Below are positions 15,287 through 21,774 of a DNA stretch of 64,000 nucleotides, one piece after another. This stretch comes from Comamonas fluminis. Its GTDB lineage: Bacteria > Pseudomonadota > Gammaproteobacteria > Burkholderiales > Burkholderiaceae_C. Where the stretch lies: positions 4,291,501-4,355,500 of the forward strand of contig NZ_CP066783.1 in NCBI RefSeq assembly GCF_019186805.1, given 5' to 3'. The notes beneath the pieces were generated by a model. It did no database searches, had not been told where the DNA came from, and was given only the letters and a program-made list of their open reading frames with translations. Numbering within the stretch: position 1 is the first letter of the stretch; each line of letters opens with the position of its first letter. A program made the translations under genes and the position numbers.

Positions 15287-15427
15287 ATTCCGCCAACGCG
15301 CCAGTGCGGTATTCCACGTGCAGCCAGTGCGCCTGACACCAGATAATGCGAACCAGCCACGAATAACAACGGCAGAAATCGACAGTCCTTGGGGAGAGGG
15401 CTGCCGCCCATCTGCTGCCTTGACCGA

Positions 15428-17029
15428 ATGCAATCACCGAAGATACCCGATGCCAACCGCAGCGCTGCCCGGCTGGATCTGCGCCGCCTGATTCTGGTGC
15501 TCACGATCTGCAGCGCCCTGATTCCGTTTGCCAACACCTTCTACGCCGGCTACCTGGTGCAGCGCCAGCAGCTGATAGACACCACGCTGGACGGCCACTA
15601 CGCCTATGCCACCAAGCTGGCGCGCAGCACGGATGACTTTCTGCAATCGGCCCTGCAACAACTGGACTACAGCGCCAAGCTGATGGCCGGGCACATGAAG
15701 GACAACGTCTTCCTGGGCGAAGAAGCCACGCGGCTGCGCCTGCAGACCAAGAGTTTCAACTCCGTCACCATCATCGACAACACCGGCTATGTGCTGGCCA
15801 CATCGCCCGAGACACTGCAGATCGCAGGCAAGACGCTGACCACCAGTGGCATTGTGGAAACCCTGCAGACCAAAGGCCCGGTCATCAGCCAGCCTTATAT
15901 GGCGGTTACCGGCAACTTCATTGTCTTTATCTCGCAGCCTGTTTTTGCGGAAGACGGCCAGTACCTGGGCGCCGTGGGCGGCAGCATCTACCTCAAGCAG
16001 GAAAGCATGCTGGATACGCTGCTGGGCTCGCACTTCTATGAAGACGGCTCCTATGTCTTCGTCGTGGACAAGAACAAGCACATCATCTACCACCCTGATG
16101 GCAAGCGCGTGGGCAACCAGGTGAACAACAACGACGCCATCAACCAAATCAGCCTGGGTGAATCCGGCAAGATGCCGCTGATCAACAGCCAGGGCCGCGA
16201 AATGCTGGCGGGCTATGCCATCGTGCCGTCCACAGGCTGGGGCATCGTGGCCCAGCGCCCCAAGGCGGCAACACTGGCGCCCCTCAACGATCTGATGCGA
16301 TCCGTGCTGTACAAGACACTGCCTATCGCCATTTTGATGCTGCTGCTGATCTGGTGGAGCGCCCGCCGCATTGCCAGCCCGCTGCGCCAGCTGGCCAATG
16401 GTGCGCGTGACATGGACAGGCCCGAAACCGCTGACAAGATTCAGTCCGTCAAGTCCTGGTACTTTGAATCGCACGAGCTGAAAAAAGCCATGCTCAAGGG
16501 CATTGACCTGCTGCAGCGCAACATCACCAAGCTGCGCGAGGACGTGAACACCGACCCGCTGACTGGCCTGGGCAACCGCCGCCACCTGGAGGCCGCCATC
16601 ACCGCCTTCCAGGCGCAGGAGACACCATTTGCCGTGCTGGCCATAGACATCGACCACTTCAAGAAGGTCAACGACAACTTTGGCCACGATGCGGGCGACA
16701 AGGTCCTCAAGCAACTGGCCCGGCAGATGCGCGATGTCTCGCGTGCCAATGACGTGCCCTGCCGCGTGGGGGGTGAAGAGTTCTTGCTGCTGCTGCCCGG
16801 CGCACCGCTGCACAGCGCCGCCCAGGTGGCAGAGCGCCTGCGTGCACTGGTTGAACATACCGAGCTGCCCGTGGTGGGCCGCATCACCATCTCACTGGGC
16901 GTGGCGCACTGGCCCGACAGCGATGACGATATGCAGGCCGTGTTCAAGCAGGCAGACGCCATGCTCTACGCCGCCAAACGTGGCGGGCGCAACCGGGTGG
17001 AAGTGGCAGCCACGGTGGAGCCTGCCTGA
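15428..17029 (+). CDS. Diguanylate cyclase with periplasmic Cache sensor domain
   Basis: The 533-residue membrane protein makes cyclic di-GMP. A first membrane helix at about residues 18-38 and a second at about 300-320 bracket a periplasmic double-Cache ligand-binding domain (with TIIDNTGYVLATSPE and VFVVDKNKHIIYHPD). A short linker leads to a GGDEF domain with the active motif in the variant form GGEEF (about residue 450) and an RxxD inhibitory site (RAND) exactly five residues before it, so product feedback is expected. The start at 15428 gives a short N-terminus before the first helix. The gene is flanked by unrelated genes. Confidence 0.92.
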   Translation: MQSPKIPDANRSAARLDLRRLILVLTICSALIPFANTFYAGYLVQRQQLIDTTLDGHYAYATKLARSTDDFLQSALQQLDYSAKLMAGHMKDNVFLGEEATRLRLQTKSFNSVTIIDNTGYVLATSPETLQIAGKTLTTSGIVETLQTKGPVISQPYMAVTGNFIVFISQPVFAEDGQYLGAVGGSIYLKQESMLDTLLGSHFYEDGSYVFVVDKNKHIIYHPDGKRVGNQVNNNDAINQISLGESGKMPLINSQGREMLAGYAIVPSTGWGIVAQRPKAATLAPLNDLMRSVLYKTLPIAILMLLLIWWSARRIASPLRQLANGARDMDRPETADKIQSVKSWYFESHELKKAMLKGIDLLQRNITKLREDVNTDPLTGLGNRRHLEAAITAFQAQETPFAVLAIDIDHFKKVNDNFGHDAGDKVLKQLARQMRDVSRANDVPCRVGGEEFLLLLPGAPLHSAAQVAERLRALVEHTELPVVGRITISLGVAHWPDSDDDMQAVFKQADAMLYAAKRGGRNRVEVAATVEPA

Positions 17030-17037
17030 GTACGGCT

Positions 17038-17358
17038 TCAAGGGTTGACCCACAGCATCAGCGCCACCACCACGCCCAGCAGCAAGGGCGTGGCAGCTAT
17101 TAGCAGCTCCAGCACCCGCCACACGGGCCGTGGTGCGGGCTGCGCCCTGAACGCCAGCACGTTCAGCACTGTCGCCGCCAGCGACAGCACCCCGGCCACC
17201 AGCACTGCCAGCAAATACAGCGCCAGCACTGGCATGCCGCAGGCATAACCACCCTGCCCGCGCTGGGCCTGAATGCTGGACTCTGCCATCCAGTACGCGC
17301 CGAACGGTATGACGACCAGCGCCAGCAGCGTCAAAACCCAGGATATCTGGCGCTTCAT
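17038..17358 (-). CDS. Small three-helix membrane protein
   Basis: The 106-residue protein shows hydrophobic segments at about residues 6-24, 43-67 and 84-103 and no known motif. Its start codon overlaps the stop codon of the upstream zinc-ribbon gene in an ATGA arrangement (17355-17358), which implies translational coupling. It is convergent with the diguanylate cyclase gene, whose stop lies 8 bases away. Function is unknown. Confidence 0.6.
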   Translation of the reverse strand: MKRQISWVLTLLALVVIPFGAYWMAESSIQAQRGQGGYACGMPVLALYLLAVLVAGVLSLAATVLNVLAFRAQPAPRPVWRVLELLIAATPLLLGVVVALMLWVNP

Positions 17359-17762
17359 GACACCCCCTCCTTTTCAGACTGCCGCTTGCCCTGCTGCTGC
17401 ACACGCCGCGCCTCGGCGGCACGCTCGCGCTCTTTGCGCCTGCAGGCATTGCAGCGGTTGGCCCTGGTGAAGACCTGGCCCTTGGCCACCTCGTACCACC
17501 ACTTCTGCCGCGTGGCGGTCCACACCTCCTGCTTGCCGCAGTCCTTGCAGCAAAACGGCTCGTCCACGTAATAGCCACGCGCCACAAAGTCGGGCTGGCC
17601 GTAGCTGTTGTAGGCCGCCAGTTGCAAGGGGTTGCAGGCGGCCATTGCCGCCGTCAGCGCAGGGGGTGCAACTGCCTGCGCTGCAGCAGACGCGGCCGCC
17701 CGGGCCGCCTTCCCCGCGCGCTGCAACTGTATTTCTGCCTTGCGTTGTTTGCCGCTTTTCAT
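17355..17762 (-). CDS. Zinc-ribbon domain protein (PF13451-like)
   Basis: The 135-residue protein starts with a basic, Ala-rich helix (about residues 1-45) and then has a zinc-ribbon domain around residues 65-120 with PFCCKDCGKQEVWTATRQKWWYE and RCNACRR, giving two CxxC pairs. Small proteins with this ribbon are common in proteobacteria and their function is unknown; nucleic-acid binding is plausible from the basic tails. The start at 17762 was chosen because upstream in-frame sequence is AT-richer and contains the divergent promoter region. It is coupled to the small membrane protein downstream. Confidence 0.65.
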   Translation of the reverse strand: MKSGKQRKAEIQLQRAGKAARAAASAAAQAVAPPALTAAMAACNPLQLAAYNSYGQPDFVARGYYVDEPFCCKDCGKQEVWTATRQKWWYEVAKGQVFTRANRCNACRRKERERAAEARRVQQQGKRQSEKEGVS

Positions 17763-17816
17763 GCACTCCACCTTAACCCAGCAGGCATTCCCGGCACCCA
17801 TGCACCAATCTGAACT

Positions 17817-17843
17817 TGCATGCTTCAAATTAGTGAGCATGCA
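17817..17843. promoter_or_regulatory. Inverted repeat TGCATGCT/AGCATGCA, enhancer-site candidate
   Basis: A perfect 8-11-8 inverted repeat is centred about 105 bases upstream of the sigma-54 GG element. This distance fits an upstream activating sequence for a sigma-54 enhancer-binding protein. Confidence 0.5.
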
Positions 17844-17933
17844 CCGCAACAGGGATAAGCGCTGCAAGCCACACACCTCTTAGAAATTAACAAGTCATTG
17901 ATTTTTAGGAACAAAACATTTGTAGGACATATC

Positions 17934-17949
17934 TGGCACACCTCTTGCA
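17934..17949 (+). promoter_or_regulatory. Sigma-54 promoter of the amine oxidase operon
   Basis: TGGCAC, five bases, TTGCA gives the invariant GG (17935-17936) and GC (17947-17948) ten bases apart, an essentially perfect -24/-12 promoter. Transcription would begin near 17960, leaving a leader of about 50 bases before the amine oxidase start. Confidence 0.8.
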
Positions 17950-18010
17950 AAGAACGCTTGCGCTGCCGCCATGCCAAGGCAGCACCAGTTCTTCAGAAAG
18001 GGAATCTCAG

Positions 18011-19606
18011 ATGCCAGAGCCAAGCCAACATTTCAGCCGCAGACAGCTGCTTTCCATGATCGGGAAAGTGGCGGGCGGCAGTGCCATGTACCAAGCCATG
18101 AGCTCGCTGGGCTATGCCGCTGAATCGCACTACAACGGCCCCGTCAAACTGAGCAATGCCAAGCCCGGCTCCAGCGTTCTGGTGCTGGGTGCAGGCCTGG
18201 CGGGCATGGTGGCCGCCATTGAATTGCGCGCTGCGGGCTACAAGGTGCAACTGCTCGAATTCCAGGGCCGCGCCGGTGGCCGCTGCTGGACGCTGCGCGG
18301 CGGTGACGAGTTTGCTGAACTCGATGGAACGCGCCAGAAAGTGGGCTTTGCCAAGGGCAACTATTTCAACCCCGGCCCCTGGCGCGTGCCCTACCACCAC
18401 CACGCGATGCTGGATTACTACAAGCGCTTTGGCATCAAGCTCGAAGCCTTCAACCAGGTCAACTACAACGCCTATCTGCACAACAGCAAGGCCCTGGCGG
18501 GCAAGCCCCAGCGCTTTCGCCATGTGCAGACCGATGTCTATGGCCATGTGGCCGAGCTGCTGTCCAAGGCCACCAACCAGGGCGCGCTGGACCAGGCCAT
18601 CAGCAAAGAGGACAAGGAACGCCTGCTGGAAGGCCTCAAGGCCTGGGGCGTGCTGGACAAGGAATACCGCTACCGCTCAAGCAACGCCGTCAGCGACTTC
18701 CGGGGCTACGACATTGACCCCGGCGGCGGCCTGATGGCGCAGGCCAAGCCCTCCACCCCTATGGGTCTGCATGATCTGCTGGAATCCAACCTGTGGCGCC
18801 AGATGGGCACCGGCAATGTGTATGAGTTCCACAGCGCCATCTTCCAGCCCGAGGGCGGCATGGACATGCTGGCCCAGGCCATGGCGCGTGATCTGGGTTC
18901 GGCCATCCGCTACAACACCAAGGTCACCAAGATTGCCCAGAACGACAAGGGCGTGACCGTGGACTATGTGGACGCCCTCAAGTCCGGCGCCACCCAGCAG
19001 GCCCGCGCCGACTGGTGCGTGTGCACGATTCCGCTGTCCATCCTCAGCCAGATCGAAGTGCAGGCCAGCGCGCCCATGCAAAACGCCATTGCCAGCGTGC
19101 CCTACGGCAGCTCCATGAAGGTCGGCCTGGAATTCAAGCGCCGCTTCTGGGAAGAAGACGAGCGCATCTACGGCGGCATCAGCTACACCGACCTGCCCAT
19201 CCAGCAAATCTCCTACCCCTCCACCGGCTATATGAGCGGTGGCCCCGCCGTGCTGCTGGGCGGCTACGCCTTTGAAAACAGCAACGCCTACCGCTTCTCG
19301 GCACTCAAGCCGGCCGAGCGCATTCGCCTGGCGCTGGAATACGGCGCGCAGATTCACCCGCAATACAAGCAGGAGTTCCTCAACGGCGTATCGGTGGCCT
19401 GGCACCGCATGCCCTGGATCAACGGCTGCTTTGGCAACTGGACCGACGCCCTGCGCGAGCAGCACTACCAGAACCTGGCCCAGGTCGATGGCCGCCTGGT
19501 ACTGGCGGGCGAGCATGTCTCGTACATCCCCGCCTGGCAGGAAGGTGCCGTGCTGTCCTCGCTGGACGCCATTCAGCGCCTGCACGCCAAGGCCTCCAGC
19601 CTCTGA
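18011..19606 (+). CDS. Exported flavin amine oxidase/dehydrogenase
   Basis: The 531-residue FAD enzyme belongs to the monoamine oxidase family. A twin-arginine signal with SRRQLL (about residues 10-15) indicates folded export to the periplasm. The dinucleotide fold VLVLGAGLAGMVAAIELRAAG (about 57-77) and GRAGGRCW motif bind FAD, and the C-terminal LVLAGEHVSYIPAWQEGAVLSS is the second FAD contact. It is the first gene of an operon with a periplasmic cytochrome c and a RidA-like lipoprotein. The cytochrome suggests that the reduced flavin is reoxidised by the respiratory chain, as reported for the nicotine enzyme NicA2 with its cytochrome, and not by oxygen. The amine substrate is unknown. Expression should be sigma-54 dependent. 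Confidence 0.87.
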   Translation: MPEPSQHFSRRQLLSMIGKVAGGSAMYQAMSSLGYAAESHYNGPVKLSNAKPGSSVLVLGAGLAGMVAAIELRAAGYKVQLLEFQGRAGGRCWTLRGGDEFAELDGTRQKVGFAKGNYFNPGPWRVPYHHHAMLDYYKRFGIKLEAFNQVNYNAYLHNSKALAGKPQRFRHVQTDVYGHVAELLSKATNQGALDQAISKEDKERLLEGLKAWGVLDKEYRYRSSNAVSDFRGYDIDPGGGLMAQAKPSTPMGLHDLLESNLWRQMGTGNVYEFHSAIFQPEGGMDMLAQAMARDLGSAIRYNTKVTKIAQNDKGVTVDYVDALKSGATQQARADWCVCTIPLSILSQIEVQASAPMQNAIASVPYGSSMKVGLEFKRRFWEEDERIYGGISYTDLPIQQISYPSTGYMSGGPAVLLGGYAFENSNAYRFSALKPAERIRLALEYGAQIHPQYKQEFLNGVSVAWHRMPWINGCFGNWTDALREQHYQNLAQVDGRLVLAGEHVSYIPAWQEGAVLSSLDAIQRLHAKASSL

Positions 19607-19632
19607 TCGACAACGTCTCAAGGAACCACACC

Positions 19633-20124
19633 ATGCACACATTGCACCGTCTTTGCGCCGCCACCGCCCTGGCTCTGAGCCTGGCCGGAGGCGCCATGGC
19701 CCAGTCACAGGGCACACAGGATGTGAAAAACCTGCAGCCGCTGCAGTCGGCCGCCATCCTGGCCATCTCGGCAGCAGATACCCAGGCGCTGATGAGCAAC
19801 TTCTCCTCCCTGCGCCCGCGCTTTTCGCAAACCGGCGGCGAAGCCCTGTACCAGGCCACCTGCCAGGGCTGCCACATGGCCAAGGGCGAAGGTGCCAAGG
19901 GTGCGGGCTTTTACCCCGCCCTCGCCTCCAACCCCAAGCTGGCCGCTGCCGCCTACCCTGCCTCGGTCGTCATGAACGGGCTGCACGGCATGCCCTCCTT
20001 TGCCAGCAAGCTGTCTGACGACCAGATTGCCGACGTCGTGAACTATGTGCGTAGCAACTTTGGCAACCAGTACCCCGACAAGCTCTCGGCCACCGACGTC
20101 AAAGCCTTTCGCGTCACGCAATAA
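19633..20124 (+). CDS. Periplasmic class I cytochrome c
   Basis: The 163-residue precursor has a Sec signal peptide (MHTLHRLCAATALALSLAGGAMAQ). One haem-binding motif CQGCH lies at about residue 76-80, and the distal Met ligand is likely in GLHGMPSFASKL, followed by the helix DDQIADVVNYVRSNFGN typical of small class I cytochromes. It follows the amine oxidase by 26 bases and precedes the RidA lipoprotein by 30, so it is probably the direct electron acceptor of the oxidase, handing electrons to a terminal oxidase. Confidence 0.87.
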   Translation: MHTLHRLCAATALALSLAGGAMAQSQGTQDVKNLQPLQSAAILAISAADTQALMSNFSSLRPRFSQTGGEALYQATCQGCHMAKGEGAKGAGFYPALASNPKLAAAAYPASVVMNGLHGMPSFASKLSDDQIADVVNYVRSNFGNQYPDKLSATDVKAFRVTQ

Positions 20125-20154
20125 GCCACCCGATCAATTCATTCAGGAGATCGC

Positions 20155-20700
20155 ATGAACATTCCATCCATCCTCAAGACCACCGTCACCGCTTCCGCTC
20201 TGGGTGCAGCCACCCTGCTCACCGGCTGCGCCGCCACCACTGCGGGCGGCGGCGATGTGGTGCGCTACAAGACACCGGGCTCCACCTTCCCCATCGCTGC
20301 GGCGGTAGAAATTCCCACCGATGCCCGCACCGTCTATCTCTCGGGCAAGGTGCCGCCCGTGGTGGACAAGTCCAAGCCCGCCACAGACCCTGCTGCCTAT
20401 GGCGGCGACACCGAAGGCCAGACCGTGGCCATTCTCAAGGGGCTGGAAGAACAGCTCAAAAGCATGAACCTCACCATGAGCGATGTGGTGAAGATGCAGG
20501 TCTTCCTGGTCGCAGACCCGGCCAAGGGCGGCAAGATGGACTTTGCTGGCTTCATGCGCGGCTACACCCAGTTCTTTGGCACAGCAGCCCAGCCCCATCT
20601 GCCCGCACGCTCGGCCTTCCAGATCGCCGCACTGGCCAACCCCGCCTGGTATGTAGAAATCGAAGTGGTGGCCGTTCGCGCCGCCAAAGCAAAACCCTAA
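20155..20700 (+). CDS. RidA/YjgF-family lipoprotein
   Basis: The 181-residue product begins with a lipoprotein signal (lipobox LLTGC at about residue 24), so this RidA-type protein is predicted to sit in the envelope; most family members are cytosolic. The Rid fold is clear from YLSGKVPP, TEGQTVAILKGLEEQL, SDVVKMQVFLVADP and LPARSAFQIAAL. The Arg in LPARSA corresponds to the Arg that binds the substrate carboxylate in imine deaminases, so enamine/imine hydrolysis is possible. In the operon with an amine oxidase it would hydrolyse the reactive imine product outside the cytoplasm. A good ribosome binding site (AGGAG) precedes the ATG. Confidence 0.87.
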   Translation: MNIPSILKTTVTASALGAATLLTGCAATTAGGGDVVRYKTPGSTFPIAAAVEIPTDARTVYLSGKVPPVVDKSKPATDPAAYGGDTEGQTVAILKGLEEQLKSMNLTMSDVVKMQVFLVADPAKGGKMDFAGFMRGYTQFFGTAAQPHLPARSAFQIAALANPAWYVEIEVVAVRAAKAKP

Positions 20701-20701
20701 A

Positions 20702-20750
20702 TTTGATAGCTGATAGCGCTTGATGGACAAGCGCTTGAAGCATTTTTAGC
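20702..20750. repeat. Dispersed AGCTATCAAA-type repeat, long copy
   Basis: TTTGATAGCTGATAGCGCTT, then AAGCGCTTGAAGCATTTTT is the most complete copy in the window, with AGCGCTT and AAGCGCT arms able to form a hairpin. Confidence 0.65.
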
Positions 20751-20757
20751 TCATAAA

Positions 20758-20781
20758 AAAGGCCCGGAAAACCGGGCCTTT
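20758..20781. terminator. Bidirectional terminator after the RidA gene
   Basis: AAAGGCCCGG pairs with CCGGGCCTTT around a 4-base A loop between convergent genes. Confidence 0.85.
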
Positions 20782-20799
20782 GTGCTTCAGAGAAAGCAA

Positions 20800-21774
20800 T
20801 CAATCCAGCTTCACGCCAGCGGCCTTGATGACCTCGCCCCAGCGCTTGGCTTCGGCGCGGGCCATGGTGTGGAACTGCTCGGGCGTGCCGGGCAGGGCTT
20901 CCATGCCGAAGTCGGCCATGCGCTTGACCACATCGGGGTCCTTGAGCGCTTTTTGCAGGTCGGCATTGATGCGCTGCACGATGGCGGGTGGCAGACCCTT
21001 GGGGCCCAGAATGCCCTGGAAGGCATAGACCTCGGAGTCCTTCAAGCCCAGCTCGGCCAGCGTGGGCACATTGGGCAGGTTGGGCACGCGCTTGGCGGTG
21101 CCGATGGCCAGTGCACGCACCTTGCCGGACTGAATCACGGGCAGGCCCGAAGCCAGGTCCAGGAACATGCAGGGCACCTGGCCGCCCATCACATCGGCCA
21201 GCGCGGGGGCTGCGCCCTTGTAGGGGATGTGGGTCAGGCTGGTGCCGGTGCGGTTCTTGAACAGCTCCATGGCCAGATGGTGGGGCGAGCCGTTGCCGGG
21301 CGATGCGTAGTTGAGCTTGCCGGGGTTGGCCTTGGCGTAGGCCAGGAATTCCTTGAAATCCTTGGCTTCAAAAGCGGGGTTGACCACCAGAGCCATGGGG
21401 AAACGGCTGATGCCGCCGACATAGGTGAAGTCCTTGTCGGGGTTGAAGGGCAGCTTGCTGAACAGGTGTTCGTTGTAGGCAAGGATGGCGTTGTCAGCCG
21501 ACATGATGGTGTAGCCATCGGGCTTGGCCGAGGCCACCATCTGGCCACCGATATTGGTGGAGGCGCCGGGGCGGTTGTCCACCACGATGGTCTGGTTCAG
21601 CGTCTTGCGCATGGCTTCTGCCACGGTGCGGGCCAGCACATCGGTGCCGCCTCCGGGTGGGTAGGGCACAACCCAGCGCACGGGGTTGGCAGGCCAGTCC
21701 TGCGCCATGGCAAAGGGGGAAGCGGCTGCAGCAGAGCCTGCGGCCACAGCGGCCAGAAATTGACGGCGATCCAT
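20800..21774 (-). CDS. Bug-family periplasmic binding protein (TctC type)
   Basis: The 324-residue precursor starts MDRRQFLAAVAAGSAAAASPFAMAQ, a signal peptide with a twin-arginine-like start. The mature portion has the signature of the Bug family: PVRWVVPYPPGGGTDVLARTVAE, VDNRPGASTNIGGQMVA and later HIPYKGAAPALADVMGGQV. Such receptors bind carboxylates for tripartite tricarboxylate transporters, but many copies are orphans as here. AGGAG lies upstream. The ligand cannot be told from sequence. Confidence 0.92.
   Translation of the reverse strand: MDRRQFLAAVAAGSAAAASPFAMAQDWPANPVRWVVPYPPGGGTDVLARTVAEAMRKTLNQTIVVDNRPGASTNIGGQMVASAKPDGYTIMSADNAILAYNEHLFSKLPFNPDKDFTYVGGISRFPMALVVNPAFEAKDFKEFLAYAKANPGKLNYASPGNGSPHHLAMELFKNRTGTSLTHIPYKGAAPALADVMGGQVPCMFLDLASGLPVIQSGKVRALAIGTAKRVPNLPNVPTLAELGLKDSEVYAFQGILGPKGLPPAIVQRINADLQKALKDPDVVKRMADFGMEALPGTPEQFHTMARAEAKRWGEVIKAAGVKLD

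Follow-up and report, generated by a model that had tools for sequence, protein, structure and literature searches.

A lao-cytochrome c-rid operon of Comamonas fluminis with a probable role in periplasmic L-amino acid oxidation and on-site imine removal

In this work, a 64,000-nucleotide stretch of the Comamonas fluminis genome (contig NZ_CP066783.1, forward-strand positions 4,291,501 to 4,355,500; hereafter the window) was analyzed with the focus on a cluster of three genes encoding a flavoenzyme (LAO), a cytochrome c and a protein of the Rid family. Taking the three proteins together, we consider it probable that they constitute an L-amino acid:cytochrome c dehydrogenase of the periplasm, together with a deaminase that removes the imine on site. 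LAO would fold with flavin adenine dinucleotide (FAD) in the cytoplasm, be exported by twin-arginine translocation (Tat), and then oxidize an L-amino acid to the imino acid in the periplasm. From the reduced FAD, two electrons would move in single steps to the cytochrome c encoded alongside, and this cytochrome would feed respiration in place of H2O2 formation; an envelope-anchored, Rid3-type lipoprotein would convert the imino acid into the 2-oxo acid and ammonium before it reacts with envelope components or re-enters the cell. A first-pass annotation, made from the DNA letters of the window, had already proposed an envelope module that sends electrons to a cytochrome c and destroys the imine on the spot; this is still the best reading of the locus, and it is now partly supported.

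The flavoenzyme contains the PF01593 domain (E-value 1.7e-61), a family which spans both amine and L-amino acid oxidases. The search against proteins of solved structure gave 103 sequences at an E-value of 1e-3 or better, and among the best 60 of them, which were inspected, the first was the L-amino acid oxidase (LAAO) of Rhodococcus opacus (2jae; 5.6e-87 over residues 50-528, and 1.9e-106 with a profile of 13 LAO relatives); ranked after it were reconstructed ancestors and further L-amino acid oxidases. Residues R125, Y419 and W509 fall on substrate-site positions of 2jae in the alignment and, like the flavin-site lysine K370, are 100% kept in 81 aligned sequences; the R. opacus counterpart of R125 is presumably the carboxylate-binding arginine, and we take the tyrosine and the tryptophan to be substrate-site residues. 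Because 2jae is the best solved match and the aligned Arg, Tyr and Trp are invariant, an L-amino acid seems more likely as the substrate than a plain amine, perhaps tryptophan or another large L-amino acid. The initial description of the enzyme as a NicA2-type amine oxidase thus holds loosely, at the level of PF01593, but its best matches are L-amino acid oxidases. The closest homologue among the matches listed (93% identity) is labelled Comamonas testosteroni. The structural model, built from 100 sequences, has a mean predicted local distance difference test (pLDDT) score of 89.4, with 401 of 531 residues at 90 or more; an earlier model from 13 sequences (mean pLDDT of 67.8) was not used.

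The export signals and motifs noticed at first pass were all found again, and the existence of the three genes as a module is well supported. LAO starts with a twin-arginine leader (SRRQLL, with the arginine pair at residues 10-11). The cytochrome (PF13442, E-value 1.1e-14) has an N-terminus typical of the Sec pathway and a single CxxCH motif at residues 77-81, and Cys77, Cys80, His81 and Met120 are kept in 80/80 aligned cytochromes, Met120 being a candidate haem ligand. The Rid protein (PF01042, E-value 2.1e-16; AGGAG upstream of its start) contains the LPARSA motif and a lipobox, LLTGC with Cys25, preceded by a charged n-region and a hydrophobic core according to a heuristic prediction, which suggests lipid anchoring in an envelope membrane. 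The operon is indeed tight, with spacers of 26 and 30 bases between the three co-directional genes.

The gene order, whose conservation the first-pass annotation had proposed to check, was compared across loci of the best 80 of at least 577 LAO relatives from species genomes, a sample which leans to close relatives. A cytochrome gene directly follows lao in 79 of these 80 loci, a Rid gene follows both of them in 49, and in three others it is localized elsewhere in the examined stretch. This recurrence of the arrangement goes beyond coincidence. The sole cytochrome-less locus (L044) is that of the Bradyrhizobium tropiciagri LAO, downstream of which neither a cytochrome nor a Rid gene was found. 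A less biased sample, comprising 200 Pseudomonadota genomes with at most seven candidates scored per genome, contained 12 LAO genes, spread over 11 genomes among which is that of the window. All 10 genes with an identity of at least 53% (again with the window's own) have a cytochrome neighbour, nine after and one before LAO, and a Rid gene with a leader, as judged by eye, is present within 4.5 kb of eight of the 12. Since the cytochrome gene adjoins LAO in 79/80 loci and in 10/10 genes, electron transfer to this cytochrome is favoured.

The distribution of the module is patchy. Of 53 genomes of the genus, 17 encode LAO, and these 17 plus two more (19 in total) encode this Rid. Family-wide, LAO was found in three of 60 genera (one genome each, the own one included), and the presence of Rid on the LAO tree requires 16 changes when two incomplete loci, L013 and L090, are left out. 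The two extra Rid genes of the genus (L153 and L154, in genomes G207 and G216) have neither LAO nor such a cytochrome within 6 kb. In one other genome of the genus (G213:C1:1681847-1687471), two tandem LAO and Rid pairs were observed, each with a gap that could fit a cytochrome gene.

The main rival, which we regard as unlikely, is that LAO is a true periplasmic O2-using L-amino acid oxidase forming H2O2, with the cytochrome in a side role (e.g., peroxide handling) and Rid clearing the imine. Its nearest solved relative, the R. opacus LAAO, is named an oxidase, K370 is kept, and two distant relatives (L165 and L166) have no cytochrome gene in the stretch examined; moreover, the algal LAO1 makes peroxide in the periplasm with a RIDA partner, according to the available text of PMC10805672. 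On the other side, LAO has no neighbour as constant as the cytochrome in either sample. The accessible part of a 2025 study describes flavin amine oxidases (FAOs) that carry a Tat leader and are encoded next to a cytochrome c as mostly cytochrome-using dehydrogenases, and most of the tested NicA2-related enzymes with this combination prefer the cytochrome (PMC12224317).

Several observations weigh against a cytochrome-linked module with a dedicated deaminase. According to the 2025 study, the flavin-site lysine is shared by almost every oxidase and dehydrogenase, so K370 cannot decide between the two types of enzymes, and in the same study, as far as its available text goes, the clade 1 enzymes were only modestly reactive with their own cytochromes, while one clade 2 enzyme was about as reactive with O2 as with cytochrome (PMC12224317). 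The L166 relative (34% identity) is accompanied by an exported Rid, with no cytochrome gene within 1.4 kb after LAO; near L165, neither a cytochrome nor a Rid gene is present in the stretch examined. A second LAO copy in one genome (L155, G189:C2:30500-36500; 62% identical) is directly followed by Rid with no such cytochrome within 6 kb, and it is possibly an O2-using version. Finally, no Rid gene was found in 28 of the 80 loci (27 LAO-cytochrome loci and L044), a count which includes L013 and L090, both ending too early to tell, and which comes from a search with the window's single Rid sequence, by which distant Rid types could be missed. Rid is therefore not obligatory to the module.

The assignment of the imine-removing step to Rid is based on its nearest solved relatives and its conserved residues. 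The nearest solved Rid proteins are PSPTO3006 (E-value 6.4e-34) and PFL1385 (5.3e-29), both assigned to the Rid3 group and able to hydrolyse in vitro imines produced by an L-amino acid oxidase, as stated in the accessible text of PMC5619798. Rid3 proteins, in the description available from PMC4433059, keep the catalytic Arg and Glu, with Ile replacing Tyr. The same combination is present in the window's protein, and among 48 aligned Rid proteins (excluding L045, L066 and the three Rid genes located apart from LAO) Arg152 and Glu170 are kept in 48/48 and Ile47 in 47/48, with Val in one. The invariance of Arg152 and Glu170 also speaks against the idea that Rid chiefly supports LAO structurally or stabilizes it, with imine hydrolysis being secondary, for which the model is the beta subunit of an algal periplasmic complex, in which a RidA subunit without a catalytic role accompanies the catalytic LAAO subunit (cited in the available part of PMC5053998). 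We hold this idea to be decidedly unlikely also in view of the 28 loci without a found Rid, most of them with an intact LAO-cytochrome pair, on account of which LAO seems able to function without Rid.

As for the export of Rid, all leaders in this study were judged by motif and hydropathy. The heuristic applied to Rid considers charge, a hydrophobic stretch and a lipobox pattern, which admits the TTGC type of Alteromonas, and, since the best among the alternative starts is taken, it is biased towards positive calls. It classified the 52 Rid genes of the 80 loci as 40 Sec-like, 10 lipobox-like and two without a leader (L045 and L066), and in the last two a leader is evident when the reading frames are inspected by eye. 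Thus, all 52 Rid genes have a leader-like start (50 by heuristic and two by eye), and for this reason exported Rid appears to be the normal state in this setting; Rid homologues without signals, which the first-pass annotation had named as a finding that would speak against its interpretation, were not encountered among them. Since Rid proteins of this branch usually carry a leader, the suspicion that Rid export is an oddity of one genome was rejected. On reading by eye, no leader is apparent in the four additional Rid genes found in the C. fluminis genome.

The first-pass view that a periplasmic Rid lipoprotein is unusual stands in part. Export itself is ordinary here, and the lipid anchor is a minority trait, with 10 lipobox-like proteins of 52 by pattern (one of them, L033, may have a normal Sec cleavage site), yet among the nearest homologues of the window's protein (best 120 of 2351) there were 100 lipobox-like, 18 Sec-like and two without a leader. 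When the window, L014, L015 and seven loci of the Alteromonadaceae type were manually marked as carrying the lipid anchor, its presence on the tree required two changes, which points to at least two origins of the predicted anchor; it seems to be common near Comamonas. The exported Rid branch is under-noticed, and within the open-licence literature searched we found no publication dealing with the export or lipidation of bacterial Rid proteins, other than those on the LAAO cluster.

Least of all do we expect the substrate to be an amine instead of an L-amino acid, by analogy with NicA2: PF01593 does cover both kinds of enzymes, but the nearest relatives of known structure belong to the L-amino acid oxidases, and the arginine aligned with the presumed carboxylate-binding residue of R. 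opacus LAAO is invariant in the 81 sequences. The amine substrate of most FAOs in the 2025 set is unknown according to the available text (PMC12224317), whereas in Gluconacetobacter diazotrophicus the lao gene is required for tryptophan conversion, as described in the accessible part of PMC5053998.

A further feature of the predicted L-amino acid:cytochrome c dehydrogenase is the unusual conservation of its Tat leader. An arginine pair followed by a hydrophobic stretch is present in 78 of the 80 LAO relatives, while the remaining two have SRRHWL and SKRDLL, and the pattern is still recognizable at 34-37% overall LAO identity. The ratio of conservation between the leader and the rest of the protein equals 1.00 for LAO, compared with 0.51 for MsrP and 0.75 for PhoX, two Tat control families (28/30 and 29/30 loci used, respectively), which is a small number of families. 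The other signals of the same operons are conserved less: 0.26 for the cytochrome signal against 0.65 for the haem domain (79 loci), and 0.31 against 0.72 in the case of Rid (47 loci). Moreover, the conservation along the LAO leader shows a helix-like periodicity (p of 0.005 in the range of 95-110 degrees, with the peak at 90 degrees, just outside it), and in residues 9-41 small residues repeat along one face of the helix. The conserved leader may serve as a membrane anchor that is left uncleaved, or as a binding site for a partner or a chaperone. Docking of the leader on LAO as a prosequence was also considered, and it was unsupported for the monomer, with residues 1-37 having a pLDDT under 50 in the model from 100 sequences. 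A broader generalization, which we put forward tentatively and with more doubt than assent, is that there exists a widespread class of respiratory enzymes, undescribed as such in the literature searched, namely L-amino acid:cytochrome c dehydrogenases in the LAAO branch, many of which have an exported Rid3 deaminase of their own and which are held at the membrane or at a partner by a retained functional Tat leader. If so, this Rid3 branch would be largely an envelope family.

The features of the locus are collected in Table 1. The first-pass annotation had placed the beginning of the operon at 17934, which is too early. A LAO start at 17934/17945 (TTG) was rejected in favour of the ATG at 18011, because the latter has a ribosome-binding sequence (GGGAA) upstream and fits the leader of the relatives; a plausible ribosome-binding sequence precedes each of the three genes. 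The hairpin downstream of the operon is situated between the convergent rid and a TctC-type gene, and its assignment as a terminator is weak, since it was absent from the results of the consensus scan. No sigma-70-type promoter was found in the region 17300-20900. Upstream of the operon (15389-17029), there is a gene for a diguanylate cyclase with a dCache sensor domain; sensors of this type can possibly bind amino acids. The C. fluminis genome (4.9 Mb, two contigs) encodes TatC. As for haem maturation, a ResB match was found in the genome and no match was found there for CcmB (System I), on which basis System II is the likely route of cytochrome c maturation.

Table 1. Predicted features of the LAO locus (positions in the window).
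Feature	Position	Strand	Basis
lao, predicted Tat-exported FAD L-amino acid oxidase/dehydrogenase, 531 aa	18011..19606	+	PF01593 and 2jae match
Conserved Tat leader of LAO, residues 9-41	18035..18133	+	leader/rest conservation ratio
cccA-like, predicted exported mono-haem class I cytochrome c, 163 aa	19633..20124	+	PF13442, adjoins LAO
ridA-like, predicted lipoprotein of the Rid family, Rid3-type, 181 aa	20155..20700	+	PF01042, lipobox
GC-rich hairpin, possible two-way terminator	about 20758-20781	.	-22.6 kcal/mol, z -4.45

If the proposed reading is right, many proteobacteria would oxidize amino acids outside the cytoplasm, with electrons passed straight to respiration and, in many cases, with a specialized enzyme alongside to deal with the reactive imine. 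Rid proteins have mostly been studied as intracellular guards of enzymes dependent on pyridoxal phosphate (PLP). To our knowledge, the periplasm is not a place where PLP enzymes would be expected, and therefore a largely exported Rid branch needs another rationale. The module would also offer a candidate electron acceptor and a candidate helper for LAAO-based auxin production in plant-associated bacteria; we know of no auxin production by C. fluminis itself.

Among known systems, the R. opacus LAAO (2jae) shares with LAO the substrate-site Arg, Tyr and Trp and is its best sequence match, and we know of no cytochrome or Rid partner for it. The Rid3 proteins PSPTO_3006 and PFL_1385 resemble the window's Rid in the same manner (best sequence match, Arg and Glu kept, Ile for Tyr), whereas the window's protein is a predicted lipoprotein; the available text of PMC5619798 does not mention signals or the periplasm, and that of PMC4433059 does not mention a signal peptide or a periplasmic location. 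The LAO1 enzyme of Chlamydomonas with LAO2/RIDA is, like the predicted module, an extracytoplasmic LAAO with a Rid partner, and it forms indole-pyruvate from tryptophan; in contrast, it is eukaryotic, makes peroxide, and in the accessible part of the source no cytochrome c partner is mentioned (PMC10805672). With NicA2/CycN, Pnao and others, the window shares a Tat flavoenzyme of the amine oxidoreductase family and an adjacent Sec-exported class I cytochrome c. The window's enzyme differs in being LAAO-like and in having a Rid partner, whereas that set consists of NicA2 relatives, and the main text of the study, in its available part, contains no mention of L-amino acid, amino acid oxidase, imine or Rid (PMC12224317).

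The closest counterpart is the lao-cccA-ridA cluster (GDI2456-2454) of the sugarcane bacterium G. diazotrophicus PAL5, described in 2016 in PMC5053998, to whose available text the following statements refer. Tn5 lao mutants lost the formation of indole-acetic acid from tryptophan, with all three transcripts lowered together, and the authors suggested that cytochrome c and RidA assist LAO, and pointed out that the organization of the cluster is conserved in Caulobacter and Xanthomonas. In earlier work on this bacterium, cited there, ccm mutants made 5% of auxin, a result without a direct counterpart in C. fluminis if its cytochrome c maturation is of the System II type, as is likely. Both clusters bring together genes for LAO with a Tat leader, cytochrome c and Rid (co-directional in the window), whereas a leader or lipid anchor of Rid is not described in the available text of the 2016 paper (PMC5053998). 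The type of cluster was thus already published, and the locus analyzed here is a new case of it; what the present comparison adds is the frequency of the gene order across related loci, the occurrence of predicted export leaders on Rid in them, the putative origin of its lipid anchor on at least two occasions and the unexpectedly strong conservation of the Tat leader of LAO.

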